Below, in pieces: positions 3,506 to 9,976 of a DNA stretch of 64,000 bases (position 1 is the stretch's first letter; each line of letters begins with the position of its first letter). Origin of the DNA: Streptacidiphilus rugosus AM-16 (GTDB lineage Bacteria; Actinomycetota; Actinomycetes; Streptomycetales; Streptomycetaceae); contig NZ_JQMJ01000001.1 in the NCBI RefSeq assembly GCF_000744655.1, positions 1-64,000 of the forward strand, in the 5' to 3' direction. The notes beneath the pieces were generated by a model. The model was given only the letters and a program-made list of their open reading frames with translations. It searched no databases and had not been told where the DNA came from. A program made the position numbers and the translations under genes.

Positions 3506-4879
3506 ATGCAGGCGATGAGTTTGGGCGAGCTTGCCGAGGTAGTCGACGGTCGGCTCGACCATGTCCCGGACCCGGCTGTGGCCGTCACCGGCCCGCTGGT
3601 GGTCGACTCCCGTAAGGCCGCCCCCGGCGCCCTGTTCCTGGCCTTCGCTGGGGAACACGTGGACGGCCACGACTTCGCCGTCAGCGCCGTGGAGTCCGGC
3701 GCGGCCGGCGTGCTCGCCTCGCGCCCGTGCGGAGCTCCGGCTGTGCTGGTGCCGGACGTCATGGCGGCACTGGCGAGGCTCACGCGGTGGCAGTCCGCGA
3801 GGATGCCGGACGTGACCCGGATCGGGATCACCGGCTCGTCCGGGAAGACCTCTACGAAGGATCTGCTGGCGCAGACGCTGGCCCGGGCCGGGACGACCGG
3901 CGCGACGGTGGGCTCCCAGAACAACGAGATCGGCGTGCCGATGACGGTCGCCAACTGCCCGGCCGACGCCAGGTTCCTCGTTCTGGAGATGGGTGCGCGC
4001 GGCGGCGGCCATCTGACCTACCTGACCGACATGGTGCCGCTGCACATCGCCCTGGTCCTGAACGTCGGTGCCGCTCACGCGGGCGAATTCGGCAGCAAGG
4101 AGGACACCGCGAAGGCCAAGGGCGAGCTGGTCGCCTCCCTTGCGGCCGACGGGCTGGCTGTACTCAACCTCGACGACCCGCTGGTGGCCGGGATGGCCGA
4201 CCGCTCGGCGGCCCCAGTCCTTTTCTTCGGCCGCACGGAGCAAGCCCAGGTCCGCGCCACGCAGGTCACGGTCGACGCTGAGGGCCGAGCACGCTTCTTG
4301 TTGACCACGCCCGCCGGCCAAGCCCCCGTGGCGCTGCAGTTGCTCGGTGAGCACCACGTCTCGAACGCACTGGCGGTGGCGGCCGTCGCCCACCACGTCG
4401 GCATGGCACCCGGCAAGATCGCGGCCGCCCTCAGTGGGGCAGTCGCGGCGACCGGTTCCCGAATGCAGCGGTACGACCGGCCGGACGGCGTGACGGTTAT
4501 CGACGACGCCTACAACGCCAACCCGGACTCGATGGCGGCGGCGCTGCGCGCGCTCGCGGCGATGCACGGCGAGCGCCGGACGGTCGCGGTACTCGGGGAG
4601 ATGCGGGAGCTGGGCGCCGCGTCCGCAGAGGAGCACCGTGCGATCGGTGAGCTGGCCGCGGCGCTCGGCACGGACGTGGTGGTCGGCGTCGGCAGCGATG
4701 ACGCGGCCGCCATGGTCGACGGCGCGGACAGCGGTGGGCGCGAGACGCATCTGGTCGCGGATCGGACGGCGGCGGCCGTGTTGCTGGGGGCGTTGCTGCG
4801 GCCAGGGGACCTGGTGATCGTGAAGGCGTCGTTGTCGGTCGGCCTGCAGCAGCTCGTCCAGGACCTCGTCGCGGTCTGA
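3506..4879 (+). CDS. murF-like: MurF-like UDP-MurNAc-tripeptide:D-Ala-D-Ala ligase
   Basis: The 457-residue product is full length for MurF. It has an N-terminal UDP-binding part (VVDSRKAAPGALFLAFAGE), the ATP-binding loop GITGSSGKTSTKD near residue 107, the central NNEIGVP and EMGARGGGHL segments, and the C-terminal domain with IDDAYNANPDSM and VLGEMRELG. Housekeeping MurF adds D-Ala-D-Ala to the muramyl tripeptide and normally sits in the mra/dcw cluster. Here it stands alone, convergent with a phosphonate-type operon. I infer either a resistant second copy that protects the producer or a ligase recruited to make a peptide-like product. ACGGAGG at 3484-3490 is 15 bases from ATG 3506; ATG 3515 is a possible alternative start. 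Confidence 0.85.
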   Translation: MQAMSLGELAEVVDGRLDHVPDPAVAVTGPLVVDSRKAAPGALFLAFAGEHVDGHDFAVSAVESGAAGVLASRPCGAPAVLVPDVMAALARLTRWQSARMPDVTRIGITGSSGKTSTKDLLAQTLARAGTTGATVGSQNNEIGVPMTVANCPADARFLVLEMGARGGGHLTYLTDMVPLHIALVLNVGAAHAGEFGSKEDTAKAKGELVASLAADGLAVLNLDDPLVAGMADRSAAPVLFFGRTEQAQVRATQVTVDAEGRARFLLTTPAGQAPVALQLLGEHHVSNALAVAAVAHHVGMAPGKIAAALSGAVAATGSRMQRYDRPDGVTVIDDAYNANPDSMAAALRALAAMHGERRTVAVLGEMRELGAASAEEHRAIGELAAALGTDVVVGVGSDDAAAMVDGADSGGRETHLVADRTAAAVLLGALLRPGDLVIVKASLSVGLQQLVQDLVAV

Positions 4880-4954: not shown

Positions 4955-5833
4955 TCACTCAATGACGGCCGACCAAAGCTCCCGAGGGTTGGTCACCTCT
5001 CCCTCGGGGCCGGTGGTCGGCATCGTCAGGCGGCCGTGGCCGAACCGGTTGTTGTCCACGATGAGCATCTGCCCCACCTGGAGCTGGTGGACGTAGCGGG
5101 TGGCGGGGTCGTTGGCGGCCTGGGCGAAGCGCTCCAGCGCGGCGAGGTAGCCCTTGGTGAGCTCCTCGCCCAGGCCCATACCGGGGAGTTGATCACGGAT
5201 CACGAGGGAGAACCGCGCGCCGAGGTCGTCGTCGCCGGTGGCGTCCGGCAGCGGGTACAGCAGGGGCAGGGTCGACAGCTCGCTGTCGACGTGCTGGGCA
5301 GTGATGGTGATCGGCGTGCCGGTGAGCAGCTCCAGGTCGTCGGAGGCGGTGTCGGGGAACAGCTGACGGTGACGGGCGACCGCGTCGGACCAGCGCACGG
5401 CGATCGACTCGCCGGCCTGGCCGGGGGCGCCGGGCCAACCGTCCTTGGTCATCAGCATGGCGGTGTAGGCGGGGCGGTGCTTGGCGAACGCCCGGCCGGA
5501 ATGGGCGGTCAGAGGCCCGCCCTGCTCCTGGACACGGGAGCCGCCGGGCTGGCAGCGCACCACGTTGATCTGCGGGTGCAGCGCGTAGGCGGGCGAGTCG
5601 GAGCGCGCGCCGTAGTTGTCGAGCGGGGTACCGAGGTGGGCGAGGAAGTCGACGTAGAGATGCGGGTCGTCCACAGGGAAGTGCTTGACGAGCGCGGCGT
5701 GGCGCAGGGCGAGGCGGTCGGTGACCTGGTCGAGGACGTCGGTCGGGTTGGCGCGGACCTCGCGGGCGCAGATCGGGTCGCCGAACAGGTCGGTCCCGGG
5801 CTTGCCGTGGGTGCGGTCGCTGGTGTCGAGCAT
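4955..5833 (-). CDS. TauD/clavaminate-synthase-like Fe(II)/2OG enzyme with HxG motif (halogenase-like)
   Basis: The 292-residue product has the fold markers of clavaminate-synthase-like enzymes. The segment LTAHSGRAFAKHRPAYTAML (residues 109-128) corresponds without gaps to the family's 'L.LHTE.AF..HRPDY' block. GQMLIVDNNRFGHGR (254-268) carries the distal iron ligand His266, and Arg284 is a candidate 2OG-binding Arg. The usual acidic iron ligand is replaced by glycine (His111-Ser-Gly113). In Fe/2OG enzymes HxG or HxA leaves a coordination site for chloride and is the hallmark of radical halogenases such as SyrB2, WelO5 and BesD. This gene is the last of the operon, 3 bp after its upstream neighbour. 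It could instead be a catalytically altered hydroxylase. Confidence 0.75.
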   Translation of the reverse strand: MLDTSDRTHGKPGTDLFGDPICAREVRANPTDVLDQVTDRLALRHAALVKHFPVDDPHLYVDFLAHLGTPLDNYGARSDSPAYALHPQINVVRCQPGGSRVQEQGGPLTAHSGRAFAKHRPAYTAMLMTKDGWPGAPGQAGESIAVRWSDAVARHRQLFPDTASDDLELLTGTPITITAQHVDSELSTLPLLYPLPDATGDDDLGARFSLVIRDQLPGMGLGEELTKGYLAALERFAQAANDPATRYVHQLQVGQMLIVDNNRFGHGRLTMPTTGPEGEVTNPRELWSAVIE

Positions 5834-5836
5834 GGG

Positions 5837-6919
5837 TCAGTTCCCCTCGCAGGCGGCGGTGTTCCGGACGGTGAGGGCGTCCAGGTAGTGGGCGAGGCTG
5901 GCGTCGGTCGTGTCGCCGAGGACGGGGGTGTGGGGGCCGAGCAGGCTCTGGACGCGGGTGGTGAAGGTGGCGGGGTTGCGGGTGTAGGAGGGGGCGTAGG
6001 TGACGGGCAGGTCCTCGAGGCCGGCCTGGTGCATGAAGGTGTGAGTGCCGAGGGCTCCGGTGGCGTCTCCGCAGACGCAGAGCACGTCGGCGATCCGCTC
6101 GCGGATGCCGGGTTGGCGCAGGAAGGTGTCGTTGTTGCCCCACACCAGGTCGCCGCCGAGTTCGACGAGGACCAGGTCCGGGCGGTGTTCCACGGCGTAG
6201 GCGAGGCAGCGCTGGATGTGGATCTCGTAGCGGGTGGCGTCGGTGTAGGAGGAGGGTAGGCCGCAGTCGACCAGGTCGTAGCTGGCCAGTGCTCCGGCGC
6301 GCCGGTGGGCGAGGGAGTCGGTGATGCCGCCGGATCCGGTCGGCTTGACGGCCACCACGCGGAGCCCGGTCTGGGTGAGGTGGCTGATGAGGCGGCCCGC
6401 GAGGGTGGTCTTGCCGACCTCGGCCGCGGTGCCTGCGACCACGAGCAGCCTGGTCCCGGCGCCGGTCTGGGCGCCGGGTGTGCGCGCGAGGTGCGCGATG
6501 TTGAGGGTGCCGATCTGGGTGTGGACGAGGCCGATCGCCTCGACCGTCCCGGCGGCTTGCTGGCCGAGCGTGTTCCGGGGTGCCGGCGACCAGTCGAGCG
6601 TGCCGATGAGGCCGGACTGGCCGCCGAGCCAGGCCAGCTGCGTGCCGGCGACGATCGCCAGCCCTTCCCGGGGAATGCCGCCGGAGGCGTGGGTGGTGGA
6701 GTCGCGGTTCGCGAGGACGCCGAGCAGGACGGTGCCGGCGGTGACCGGGTGCTGGTTCTCGCGGTAGTCGACCAGCGCGGTGATGCCGCCCGGGTCGGTG
6801 ACGCGCACCGCGATGACGTCTCCCTCGGCTCCGGTGCCGTCCGCGATCTGGCACTGGTACGGGGACAGGTCCGCTCGGATCGTGGTCGCCTGCAGGGCGT
6901 TGAGGTCTTCGAGTCTCAC
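5837..6919 (-). CDS. P-loop NTPase, dethiobiotin-synthetase/DUF1611-like
   Basis: The GTG at 6919 overlaps the upstream stop (GTGA) and is preferred over longer upstream frames. The 360-residue product has an N-terminal domain of about 150 residues that I do not recognise. A BioD-like ATPase domain follows: VVAGTAAEVGKTTLAG (Walker A, about residue 160), VVAVKPTGSGGITD (the lysine-bearing switch region of BioD-type enzymes) and DLVLVELGGDLVWGNND (Walker B-like). BioD itself carboxylates diaminopelargonate, whereas DUF1611 relatives have other or unknown substrates. Translational coupling to the decarboxylase genes argues for a step on the same pathway, perhaps ATP activation of a carboxylate or amine (inference). 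Confidence 0.65.
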   Translation of the reverse strand: MRLEDLNALQATTIRADLSPYQCQIADGTGAEGDVIAVRVTDPGGITALVDYRENQHPVTAGTVLLGVLANRDSTTHASGGIPREGLAIVAGTQLAWLGGQSGLIGTLDWSPAPRNTLGQQAAGTVEAIGLVHTQIGTLNIAHLARTPGAQTGAGTRLLVVAGTAAEVGKTTLAGRLISHLTQTGLRVVAVKPTGSGGITDSLAHRRAGALASYDLVDCGLPSSYTDATRYEIHIQRCLAYAVEHRPDLVLVELGGDLVWGNNDTFLRQPGIRERIADVLCVCGDATGALGTHTFMHQAGLEDLPVTYAPSYTRNPATFTTRVQSLLGPHTPVLGDTTDASLAHYLDALTVRNTAACEGN

Positions 6920-7503
6920 CGCGGCTCCCCCTTCGTGTCGGCGGCCGCCTGGCGGGCCAGCGCGGTGGCGTAGTCGCGGGTGCGGAAGTCGGAGCGGTCC
7001 GGCGGCGCCCCTGTCTCGTCCTCGACGGCGTAGAGAAGGCTCGGGCCGGGCGCCAAGAGCGCCTGCTCCAGGCAGTGGCGCAGTTCGGGCTCGGTCGCTG
7101 CGGTGAAGGCCTGCGGGTAGAACAAGGTCGCGGCAGCGGACTGGACCGTGCTCGGTTGGCTGGGCAAGGGCTGGCCGCCGGTGGACCGGTAGACCCCGTT
7201 GCAGGACACGACGTGGACCAGGGGAAGGGCATGGGTACCGGTGAGCTGGGCGCTGCCCCAGCCCATGAGGTGGTTGCCGTCGCCTTCGAGCACGATGGCG
7301 GCGCGGCCAGTGGCCATGGCGTACCCGGCGGCGACGCCGGCGGCCAGGCCCATCCCGCCTTGCAGCGGCAGAACGCGGTCCTCGCCGGGAGCGGTGAGCG
7401 CCATGATCTCCCGGCACAGGAAGCCGTTGCTGACGAACAGCGGCAGCTGGTGGTCGCGGGCCGCCGCGAGGACGGCGGCGGCGATGGTGTGGCGCTGTGT
7501 CAT
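6916..7503 (-). CDS. Phosphonopyruvate (or sulfopyruvate) decarboxylase, beta subunit
   Basis: The 195-residue product is the TPP-pyrophosphate-binding half of a two-subunit decarboxylase. It has SNGFLCREIMAL near the start, LQGGMGLAAGVAAGYAMA, and EGDGNHLMGWGSAQL, the GDG part of the TPP/Mg motif, which is followed about 25 residues later by SCNGVYRSTGGQ. ComE and the C-terminal half of phosphonopyruvate decarboxylase are built this way. Its ATG overlaps the alpha-subunit stop by one base (TGATG), so the two are co-translated. The adjacent PEP-mutase homologue favours phosphonopyruvate, giving phosphonoacetaldehyde and CO2 and pulling the unfavourable mutase equilibrium forward. Confidence 0.8.
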   Translation of the reverse strand: MTQRHTIAAAVLAAARDHQLPLFVSNGFLCREIMALTAPGEDRVLPLQGGMGLAAGVAAGYAMATGRAAIVLEGDGNHLMGWGSAQLTGTHALPLVHVVSCNGVYRSTGGQPLPSQPSTVQSAAATLFYPQAFTAATEPELRHCLEQALLAPGPSLLYAVEDETGAPPDRSDFRTRDYATALARQAAADTKGEPR

Positions 7504-7976
7504 CAGTGGGCTCCTCCGGGCCGGACCAGCAGGGCGCAGTGCTCGCCGGCCTGCCGGTGTGCGGTGAACCACGCTTCGAGGTCGCCGGTGTGGTCGGTGG
7601 TGGCCCAGGAGACGCCGAGGCTGGTGAGGAGGCCGGTGGTGCGCTCGCCAGTGACGACGTGGTGGGGCAGGTGGTCGGTGCCGGTCCCGGCCCAGCCCAC
7701 CAGGAGGGCGAGGGGGACGGCGGCGTCGGCGGCGAGAGAGGTGAGGGCGTCGCAGGTGGTGAACAGGCCAGCGTTCTTCATGAACAGCAGCGGGCGGGCA
7801 CCGGCGAGGGTCATGCCGACGGCGGCGGCGACCGCGGTGTCCTCGCGGGGCGCGAGATGGACGGGGATGGAGATCCCGAGTTCGCCGACGAGGTCGGTCA
7901 GGTGGGAGTCGGGGACGCCGATCGCGCAGTCGAATCCGGCGCCGTGCAGGCGCTTCGCCAGGGTGTGGGTGGTCAT
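7503..7976 (-). CDS. Phosphonopyruvate (or sulfopyruvate) decarboxylase, alpha subunit
   Basis: The 157-residue product is the TPP-pyrimidine-binding half. It has GFDCAIGVPDSHLTDLVGEL near the N-terminus and HLAPREDTAVAAAVGMTLAG with the conserved Glu that activates the cofactor. GARPLLFMKNAGLFTTCDAL and LLVGWAGTGTDHLPHH follow. Residues and length match ComD or the N-terminal half of fused phosphonopyruvate decarboxylases such as Fom2. Split subunits occur in both groups, so the substrate assignment rests on the PEP-mutase homologue immediately upstream (9-bp gap). Confidence 0.82.
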   Translation of the reverse strand: MTTHTLAKRLHGAGFDCAIGVPDSHLTDLVGELGISIPVHLAPREDTAVAAAVGMTLAGARPLLFMKNAGLFTTCDALTSLAADAAVPLALLVGWAGTGTDHLPHHVVTGERTTGLLTSLGVSWATTDHTGDLEAWFTAHRQAGEHCALLVRPGGAH

Positions 7977-7985
7977 CGTCGGCTT

Positions 7986-8843
7986 TCAGAGGCAGGCGCT
8001 GGCGGCGCGGTCGGCGATCTGGAGCAGGTCCTGGACGTCGGCAAGGGGCGGGGCGCCGGGCGCGGTGAACGTGCCGGTGGCAGTGAAGTGCTGGGCCGTG
8101 GCGCGCATGGCGGCGAGGCTGGCGCGGGTGAGGTGGTTGGCGTAGATGGCCAGGCTGAACCCCGCGTGGGCGAGCTGGTGGCCGGTCAGGTGGGGGAAGG
8201 CGGTGGGCACGGTGACCAGCGGGGCTCGCTCGTCCCAGCCCGCTGCGGTGGCCAGGGCCTGCTGGCCGGTCTTGTCCTTGGAGTGCATGAGGATCGCGTC
8301 GGCTCCGGCCTCGATGTAGAGCGCGGCGCGCTCGAGGGCCTCGGTGACCTGGCCGCCGCAGATCAGGGTCTCGGTGCGGGCGATCAGAACGAGGTCCGGT
8401 GCGGCGTCGCGCAGGGCCTTGAGCTGGTCGCGCATCAGCTGCGCGTCGGCGAGCTGCTGCTCGCGGTGCAGCGCGAAGCTGTTGATCTTCGGGTAGGCGG
8501 AGTCCTCCAGGCACAGTGCAGAGGCTCCGGCGCGGCCGAGGTCAGTGGCGAAGCGGGCGGCGGTGGCGGCGGACCCGCCGGCGTTGTCGACGTCGATGAT
8601 CACCGGCAGGTCGCAGACCCGGCCGAGCGCGGTGACGACGTCGGCCAGGTCGCGCGGGCCCAGGACGTTCTCGTCGGGCAGGCCGAGCGCGGTGGACACT
8701 TCCAGGCCCGACACCCACAGCGCGTCGAAGTTAGCGTCGGTCGCGACGCTCGCGGCCATCGCGTTGGCCGCGCCCAGCGCGCGCAGCAGGTGGCGGTCGC
8801 TGTGGGCTGCGGTGAGGGTCTGGCTGAAGGGCGCGTTCGTCAT
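7986..8843 (-). CDS. Phosphoenolpyruvate mutase homologue with variant signature
   Basis: The enzyme rearranges PEP to phosphonopyruvate, forming the C-P bond that starts nearly all phosphonate pathways. The 285-residue product matches PEP mutases along its length: WVSGLEVSTALGLPDE (Asp57), the metal-binding VIIDVDNAGG (Asp84, Asp86), CLEDSAYPKINSF (113-123), VLIARTETLICGG, GADAILMHSK, PLVTVPT and the PEPM-type YANHLTRAS. The family signature is EDK-x5-NS; here Lys115 is Ser (EDS-x5-NS), while the PK lysine and the NS pair are kept. Related lyases carry a KKCGH-type motif that is absent here. The substitution may be neutral or may mean a shifted substrate. An AGGAAG site precedes the ATG. Confidence 0.82.
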   Translation of the reverse strand: MTNAPFSQTLTAAHSDRHLLRALGAANAMAASVATDANFDALWVSGLEVSTALGLPDENVLGPRDLADVVTALGRVCDLPVIIDVDNAGGSAATAARFATDLGRAGASALCLEDSAYPKINSFALHREQQLADAQLMRDQLKALRDAAPDLVLIARTETLICGGQVTEALERAALYIEAGADAILMHSKDKTGQQALATAAGWDERAPLVTVPTAFPHLTGHQLAHAGFSLAIYANHLTRASLAAMRATAQHFTATGTFTAPGAPPLADVQDLLQIADRAASACL

Positions 8844-8860: not shown

Positions 8861-9976
8861 TCAGGCGGGCGTGGGCACGGTGAGGGCACGAGGGAGCGGC
8901 GCGTCGCCGGTCGGGGCGGTGGGGGTGAGGTCGCGGACCCAGTCGGCGAGCTGGTCGGCCCAACGCGGCGTGGCCACACCCGCGCGGACCTGGTACATCG
9001 CGGTGGTGGAGGCGAGGCGGTCGGCCACCTCGTGGACCGACTCCAGGCGGGGACGCCAGGACCAGCCGGGTAGCCAGCCGGTCGGCAGCCGGTCTCCGAT
9101 CAGCCGCTCCTGGAGGAACCGCCGGATCTCCGGCCCGGTCAGGCGGCGGACCGTCAGGCCCTCGCCGGCCGTGTCGATGCCGAGGTCCACGACTGTGGTG
9201 ACCTGGGAGGGTGGTGCGGCGATCGGGCAGCCGAACAGGGCGTCCAGCTCGTCGAAGAAGACCTCGATCTTCTGGTCGGCCGGGTTGCGGCGCGCCCAGT
9301 CCTCGGGGAGGCGGCGCATCACAGCGTTGTGACCGGCCGTGCCGGCCCCGATCCGCACGACGTGCGGCCACGTCGCGGCCTCCACGGCGGCTCCGGCCGG
9401 GGTCAGCAGGGTGGCGTCATTGCCCAGGGCTCTGAGGCCGCGACTGACCAGCTCGACGAAGACGGTGGTCTTGCCGGCCCCGCTGGGTCCGAGGAACACG
9501 CAGGCCTGGCCAGGGGCGGACTCCACGGCGGACGAGTGGGCGAGGATCGATCCCTGCGCCTCGACCTGGCGGCGCAGCGGGTACTTGAGCAGGTAGTGCA
9601 GGAACGGCAGGTGCGGGTCACCGGGGTCGAGCTGGGCGACGGTGACCTGTGGCCGGGCCACGGTGACCAGGGAGCGCGGCGGACCGTCGTGAAGCAGCGC
9701 CAGCCCCGCGGGGACGGCGATGCGCCCTCCGCCATGGGGCACCTTGAGCTGGTCCCGAGCGGGCACCGCCCCAGTGTCGGCGGCGGTGAAGACGCCGACC
9801 GTCGGGACTGTGAGACGCACCGGCGGGGAGACGAGAGCCCCGTAGGCGGTGAACGCGCGACGAAGGCGTTCCGCCAGGTCGGTGCGGTCGAAGACGGCAC
9901 GGACCTGGGCGTCGCGGTACGCGATCTCATAGCTGGCAGTAGGCTCAACTTCCCTACTGTCAATGGATGTTGTCAT
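8861..9976 (-). CDS. HPr-kinase/PEPCK-fold-like P-loop kinase
   Basis: This is the first gene of the minus-strand operon. The ATG at 9976 has GGGGAGAG in front of it. The 371-residue product has CVFLGPSGAGKTTVFVELVS (Walker A, about residues 158-177) followed by ALGNDATLLTP. This spacing is seen in HPr serine kinase-related proteins found in natural-product clusters. DQKIEVFFDELDALFGC in the C-terminal half may hold acidic active-site residues. No signal peptide or membrane segment is visible. In this context it may phosphorylate a pathway intermediate, parallel to the FomA/FomB kinases of fosfomycin clusters, although those belong to different folds (inference). Confidence 0.65.
   Translation of the reverse strand: MTTSIDSREVEPTASYEIAYRDAQVRAVFDRTDLAERLRRAFTAYGALVSPPVRLTVPTVGVFTAADTGAVPARDQLKVPHGGGRIAVPAGLALLHDGPPRSLVTVARPQVTVAQLDPGDPHLPFLHYLLKYPLRRQVEAQGSILAHSSAVESAPGQACVFLGPSGAGKTTVFVELVSRGLRALGNDATLLTPAGAAVEAATWPHVVRIGAGTAGHNAVMRRLPEDWARRNPADQKIEVFFDELDALFGCPIAAPPSQVTTVVDLGIDTAGEGLTVRRLTGPEIRRFLQERLIGDRLPTGWLPGWSWRPRLESVHEVADRLASTTAMYQVRAGVATPRWADQLADWVRDLTPTAPTGDAPLPRALTVPTPA

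Follow-up and report, generated by a model that had tools for sequence, protein, structure and literature searches.

HxG and HxA proteins of a TauD-like family in phosphonate-type gene clusters: a candidate new lineage of radical halogenases

In the 64,000-nucleotide stretch of Streptacidiphilus rugosus AM-16 analysed here (contig NZ_JQMJ01000001.1, positions 1 to 64,000; hereafter the window), a putative phosphonate-type operon encodes a TauD/clavaminate-synthase-like protein of the Fe(II)/2-oxoglutarate (2OG) type that has glycine in place of the carboxylate iron ligand. We propose that this protein and its relatives form a candidate new halogenase lineage, which may carry out halogenation in some form, with the halogen retained or cryptic. 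We put the probability of this reading at roughly 0.5, because the motif by itself is insufficient and the halide, substrate and product are all deduced. Its direct basis is the predicted fold, the ligand loss, the conservation of two His and an Arg, the grouping in a single clade and the genomic linkage. The gene and the residues of its putative active site are as follows.

4955..5833, minus strand: TauD/clavaminate-synthase-like Fe(II)/2OG protein, HSG replacing HxD/E (292-amino-acid open reading frame, ORF)
5495..5503, minus strand: codons CAT TCC GGC for H111-S112-G113 (proximal His and missing carboxylate)
5492..5494, minus strand: R114, beside the vacant ligand position, present in every one of the 13 family rows
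5036..5038, minus strand: H266, distal iron ligand by alignment
4982..4984, minus strand: R284, taken as the 2OG-binding Arg by alignment with the Arg of 64 of 70 controls

The 292-residue product of the ORF at 4955-5833 on the minus strand, GGPLTAHSGRAFAKHRPAY, matches Pfam PF02668 (TauD/TfdA) with E = 5e-9 and 36.9 bits against a curated cut-off of 27 (a Pseudomonas homologue scores 28.5 bits against this cut-off), and the double-stranded beta-helix fold of TauD/TfdA is present in the structural model. Since the HxD/E...H facial triad of hydroxylases is lacking, its place in TauD/TfdA rests on predicted fold and profile and does not extend to hydroxylase chemistry. What it shares with halogenases is Gly/Ala replacing the triad carboxylate, both His and, by alignment only, the 2OG Arg; R284 presumably binds 2OG, as in the wider family. 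G113 falls in the column that holds D/E in control TauD proteins and, in a gap-free part of the family profile, the D of the HTD motif of the 2-trimethylaminoethylphosphonate hydroxylase TmpA (PDB 6npb/6npc), which differs from the family in this motif and is 19% identical over the aligned part. In the predicted structure the local confidence (predicted local distance difference test, pLDDT) is below 50 over residues 97-113, precisely the HSG loop. A sequence-only reading of this DNA had assigned the protein to the same family, placed G113 at the Glu/Asp ligand position within 5480-5520, and pointed to His266 and a candidate 2OG Arg. All of this is borne out, with the HSG codons at 5503-5495.

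Loss of the carboxylate extends across the family. HxG or HxA was found in 15 of 15 members read, from Streptomycetaceae and Pseudomonas, in a count made outside loci L040, L043 and L006 (a C-terminal remnant). The 13 rows of alignment A3 comprise seven HxG proteins (HSG 6, HTG 1) and six HxA proteins (HSA 3, HTA 1, HNA 2); the other two, L016 (HSG) and L017 (HSA), were aligned in A1/A2 only. The homologue at L015, 76% identical to the window protein, also has HSG. As L015, all 13 A3 rows, L016 and L017 agree, HSG in the window is neither chance nor a base error. The controls were 70 TauD-family proteins, sampled within the same taxonomic family and order: the best match in each of 30 genomes plus 40 picked among the weaker matches listed. 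Their aligned columns hold HxD/E in 66 of 70, YxE in one and HxG/A in none; three are gapped at the motif, where their ungapped sequences read HSD, HSD and HTD, so that the D/E total is 69 of 70. H111, H266 and R284 are invariant in all 13 family rows, in columns that are His, His and Arg in 69, 69 and 64 of the 70 controls. W148, N282, W287 and S288 are further family-invariant residues (the S288 column is Arg in 52/70 controls), and at the position of R114 the controls have mostly V or N, with R in at least two (L104, L128).

A midpoint-rooted tree was built from the 13 A3 rows and 33 of the 70 controls. All 13 fell on one side of a branch with support 100/100 and a stem length of 1.89, in a tree with several long control branches and an unusual composition of L028/L029. 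HxG rows form a subclade (99/99), the best tree does not unite the HxA rows (2 changes), and the closest control to the family, L101, carries HTD (81/79). With one supported clade whose nearest control is HTD, the carboxylate was apparently lost a single time. Ratios of nonsynonymous to synonymous substitution (dN/dS) were 0.16 to 0.41 in all eight gene pairs computed, indicating purifying selection and counting against neutral decay. The ligand loss noticed in a single gene is thus strengthened into a trait of a conserved clade in which, as in known halogenases, both G and A occur.

In genomes of the same taxonomic family, matches occurred in 7 of 394, the window's own included: G049 has a match of 77% identity, G041, G057 and G083 have two paralogues apiece (36-45% identity), G206 holds a C-terminal piece only, and L007 of G320 is distant (E 7e-4, HTD) and lies outside the family. 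A class-wide sample matched in 1 of 394 genomes, again the window's own. Among genome contigs a single-protein query found no relative, although an alignment-based scan of the same contigs did; this profile scan gave 11 loci from seven Streptomyces/Kitasatospora strains and two Pseudomonas, with L019, L020, L022 and L025 being the same DNA as G049, G057 and G041. Plasmid sequences gave no family match. Of 298 Pseudomonas genomes sampled, 12 gave a match at E 1e-5, G748 being the only strong one; the other 11 matches had E values of 4e-7 to 9e-6 and partial model coverage.

A carboxylate that is consistently missing while the other ligands are retained, together with G and A forms, selection and a place in specialised-metabolism clusters, is the pattern expected of radical halogenases. 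We infer iron binding, halide binding, substrate and reaction of the window protein as follows. It would be a catalytically competent Fe(II)/2OG enzyme of the TauD/TmpA branch that has lost its carboxylate ligand, with iron held by two His and 2OG and a small anion, for which chloride is the likeliest, in the vacant site. On activation of O2, a Cl-Fe(IV)=O species would take hydrogen from an intermediate of the phosphonate pathway (candidates are phosphonoacetaldehyde, phosphonoacetate and a phosphonoacetate amide), and chloride would then be transferred to carbon; the halogen may remain in the product or act as a cryptic leaving group. More tentatively, and at somewhat less than even odds, the family may be a separate group of TauD/TmpA-branch phosphonate halogenases, with HxG and HxA proteins in one pathway in Streptomyces and Kitasatospora and HxA alone in Pseudomonas, giving bacterial halogenated phosphonates or cryptic halogenation and antimetabolites possibly directed against aspartate carbamoyltransferase (ATCase).

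The phosphonate-type setting claimed by the sequence-only reading is recovered in the genes that precede the TauD gene.

5837..6919, minus strand: P-loop protein with a dethiobiotin-synthetase/MobB-like C-terminal domain
6916..7503, minus strand: phosphonopyruvate decarboxylase-like thiamine pyrophosphate (TPP) enzyme, C-terminal part
7503..7976, minus strand: phosphonopyruvate decarboxylase-like TPP enzyme, N-terminal part
7986..8843, minus strand: phosphoenolpyruvate (PEP) mutase homologue, EDSx5NS not EDKx5NS
8861..9976, minus strand: P-loop protein with a weak HprK-like match; the putative operon starts with this gene

L015 has the same gene order, and family clusters hold a PEP mutase homologue, a phosphonopyruvate-decarboxylase-like enzyme and a dethiobiotin-synthetase-like protein. 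Both TPP halves have TIGR03297 as best model (E 4e-21 and 1e-18), and their 75.6 and 67.2 bits lie below its cut-off of 312.5, which is a whole-protein value. The window PEP mutase homologue shares EDSx5NS with its L015 counterpart (7005-7862), and the other four of six aligned have EDKx5NS; the later loop K and N are kept in all six. The closest solved relatives of the window PEP mutase homologue are phosphonopyruvate hydrolase and PEP mutase. As a separate observation, one cluster (L026, 13619-17571) lacks the HxG TauD gene and the CysC/CysN/CysD genes of its sister clusters. The region at 17938-63043 of the window carries VirB4-like, TadA-like pilus and several transposase-like genes (named by eye), and the operon, on a 632 kb contig, may be plasmid-borne.

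A homologue of the P-loop protein was seen in all 11 clusters examined; that of Pseudomonas has a weak DUF1611 match, and a literature search on DUF1611 with phosphonates gave no mention of DUF1611 among the matches listed. The TauD gene adjoins the P-loop gene in the window and in seven other loci (L015, L011, L014, L016, L021, L023 and L024). This adjacency would suit a pseudo-oxygenase, free of redox chemistry, that acts as a binding partner in the pathway, for example of the neighbouring dethiobiotin-synthetase-like protein; loss of a catalytic ligand is a common mark of a pseudoenzyme, and the clade stem is long. We consider such a role quite unlikely, given that the invariance of both His and the Arg is unexpected if metal binding had been lost, and that the two genes stand apart in the Pseudomonas clusters and, for the HxA gene, in L026.

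Two members of the family belong to the Kitasatospora fiedleri phosphonate cluster, in which, according to the available sections of PMC12723261, deletion of pepM-ppdAB abolishes phosphonate signals. The pepM coordinates given there (3403515-3404408) are the exact position of the L011 PEP mutase (G083:C1), and the genes stand in the same order (kfp05 ATP-grasp; kfp07 and kfp17 TauD; kfp10-13 3'-phosphoadenosine-5'-phosphosulfate, PAPS; kfp20 aminotransferase). The exact coordinates and the gene order identify the L011 HxG protein as kfp07 and the L012 HxA protein as kfp17. Kfp07 and Kfp17, which share 40% and 33% identity with the window protein, are thus of the same family, within a cluster reported in those sections as needed for phosphonate production. 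That cluster is far larger than the window operon, beside which its aldehyde dehydrogenase, ATP-grasp, PAPS and ATCase genes were unseen.

In the same sections, kfp07 and kfp17 are proposed, after earlier Burkholderia work, to be phosphonoacetate hydroxylases yielding 2-hydroxyphosphonoacetate. The family might accordingly consist of halide-free Fe/2OG oxygenases that hydroxylate, desaturate or rearrange phosphonoacetate derivatives, the third site being filled by water, by D203 or E142, or by the phosphonate or carboxylate of the substrate. The nearest solved relatives, TmpA included, are hydroxylases, and D203 is invariant in a stretch that is gapped in 70/70 controls. We nevertheless regard halide-free chemistry as unlikely. 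The carboxylate is otherwise near-universal (69/70 sampled controls), and in prolyl 4-hydroxylase small molecules failed to restore the hydroxylase activity of the D414A variant (available part of PMC2767507). The words 'halogen', 'chlor', 'carbamoyl' and 'pyrB' are absent from the main text of PMC12723261 as available, and its sections 9 to 12 leave the missing ligand unmentioned. An open anion site, likeliest that of a radical halogenase, fits the sequence better than phosphonoacetate hydroxylation.

Several points weigh against halogenation. D203 and E142, the latter also an invariant acidic residue of the family, could serve as replacement iron ligands, and we know of no nameable counterpart of R114 in known halogenases. 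None of the 33 PDB sequence matches of the window protein is a chain named halogenase. The literature on phosphonates and halogenation yielded no bacterial halogenated phosphonate. One phosphonate, fosfonochlorin, is chlorinated. It comes from Fusarium, a fungus, and was the sole name found (PMC13302981, in the part available). The window PEP mutase homologue scores 209 bits against an NCBIfam cut-off of 319.55, and its non-canonical motif means that we infer the phosphonate substrate, and phosphonate production by the operon, from the family as a whole. Given the missing EDK and the score below cut-off, phosphonate chemistry of the window operon is likely but not secure. The cluster mining described in the available sections of PMC12723261 used a perfect EDKx5NS match, and would overlook this operon; the L015 homologue would likewise escape such a search. 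Finally, prolyl 4-hydroxylase gives no halogenase with D414A or D414G (PMC2767507), and a truncated plant HxG paralogue, DAH-like, was judged non-functional (PMC12346261), both as far as the available parts of these papers go; judging from these cases, HxG/A is insufficient for halogenation.

Known Fe(II)/2OG radical halogenases, among them SyrB2, WelO5, BesD, AdaV and the plant DAH, apparently belong to a different superfamily branch from the window protein. Among the 50 structural neighbours listed, as among the PDB sequence matches, none is a halogenase by name, which for either list excludes nothing, and a literature search on TauD with halogenase, by title only, found no TauD-branch halogenase. 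The general rule in the available part of PMC12346261 is that Fe/2OG halogenases combine His-x-Gly/Ala, in place of Asp/Glu, with a distal His and 2OG, features that the window protein shares by alignment, and that the change is key and was likely preceded by many others. The sequence-only reading had called HxG/A the defining trait of halogenases: the replacement rule stands, but the motif does not suffice, and its reading of the protein as a candidate halogenase is supported in part. According to the same source, the H6H D219A variant both chlorinates and azidates, so an open site can admit other anions. Transfer of a different anion by an Fe/2OG enzyme, or use of the open site for other group transfer, nonetheless appears very improbable; the ODS25 cluster lacks both the PAPS-making genes and the HxG gene, which would suit such a role, yet a gene that could supply the anion was not found, and PAPS genes were unseen among the gene calls around the window operon. 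A ClC-type gene (named by eye), considered as halide support, was set aside: it lies beside the L011 and L016 clusters and was unseen in the L014 gene calls.

Cluster-borne ATCase genes occur in the larger clusters and in the Pseudomonas clusters (L012 1682-2728; L028 8744-9799). In G083 and G057 the cluster ATCase is the only match to the ornithine/aspartate carbamoyltransferase family besides an argF-like one. These genes suggest an ATCase-directed product, such as an analogue of PALA (N-phosphonoacetyl-L-aspartate), which we take as a candidate product type. G101, which has no TauD-family profile match, carries only a cluster-type ATCase (77%) besides its argF-like gene; the ATCase can therefore stand without the cluster, which undercuts its use as proof of a PALA-like product. 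One ATCase search missed the known cluster ATCases of G083, G041 and G057, and its negatives are weak. Literature searches found no phosphonoacetyl compounds linked with phosphonate biosynthesis or Streptomyces clusters and, among the matches listed, no relevant work on ATCase, PALA and phosphonates. Between the HxA TauD gene and the ATCase gene lies an ORF of 69 to 93 amino acids with a conserved SLDTAV(A/S)SLKEVEQRNVSSVQLVAL stretch, a possible peptide substrate or scaffold, whose L012 copy has no Pfam match. Its sites are listed here.

L012, 2845-3054: small ORF
L013, 13009-13218: small ORF
L024, 523-747: small ORF
L026, 10789-11037: small ORF
L027, 10794-11075: small ORF

The operon is flanked by a further gene of interest.

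3506..4879, plus strand: extra murF copy, convergent with the operon

This copy is 58% identical to the chromosomal one, and G049 and G206 also carry an extra copy. Together they define a distinct murF paralogue (window 3506-4879, L015 11042-12415, L018 7461-8840, L191 9055-10428), 78-82% identical to the window copy, compared with 54-59% for chromosomal copies. Two genomes have the paralogue next to the operon, and a third has it next to a TauD remnant; around a further G049 copy (C84) the phosphonate operon is absent from 13.5 kb. Two murF matches also occur in 3 of 11 other genomes searched. A self-resistance role is possible but unproven, and we leave it as a lead because one copy stands without the operon and two murF matches occur elsewhere.

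If the halogenase reading is true, the family would be a separate halogenase lineage with small soluble phosphonates as its likely substrates, and would offer a route to biocatalytic alpha-halophosphonates, which chemists prize as phosphate mimics. If these proteins are not halogenases, they would represent natural enzymes of the Fe/2OG type that function in the absence of the carboxylate, and would break the rule by which genomes are mined for halogenases. Both outcomes matter for the K. fiedleri phosphonate, whose structure is unsolved and for which hydroxylation has been proposed in print.
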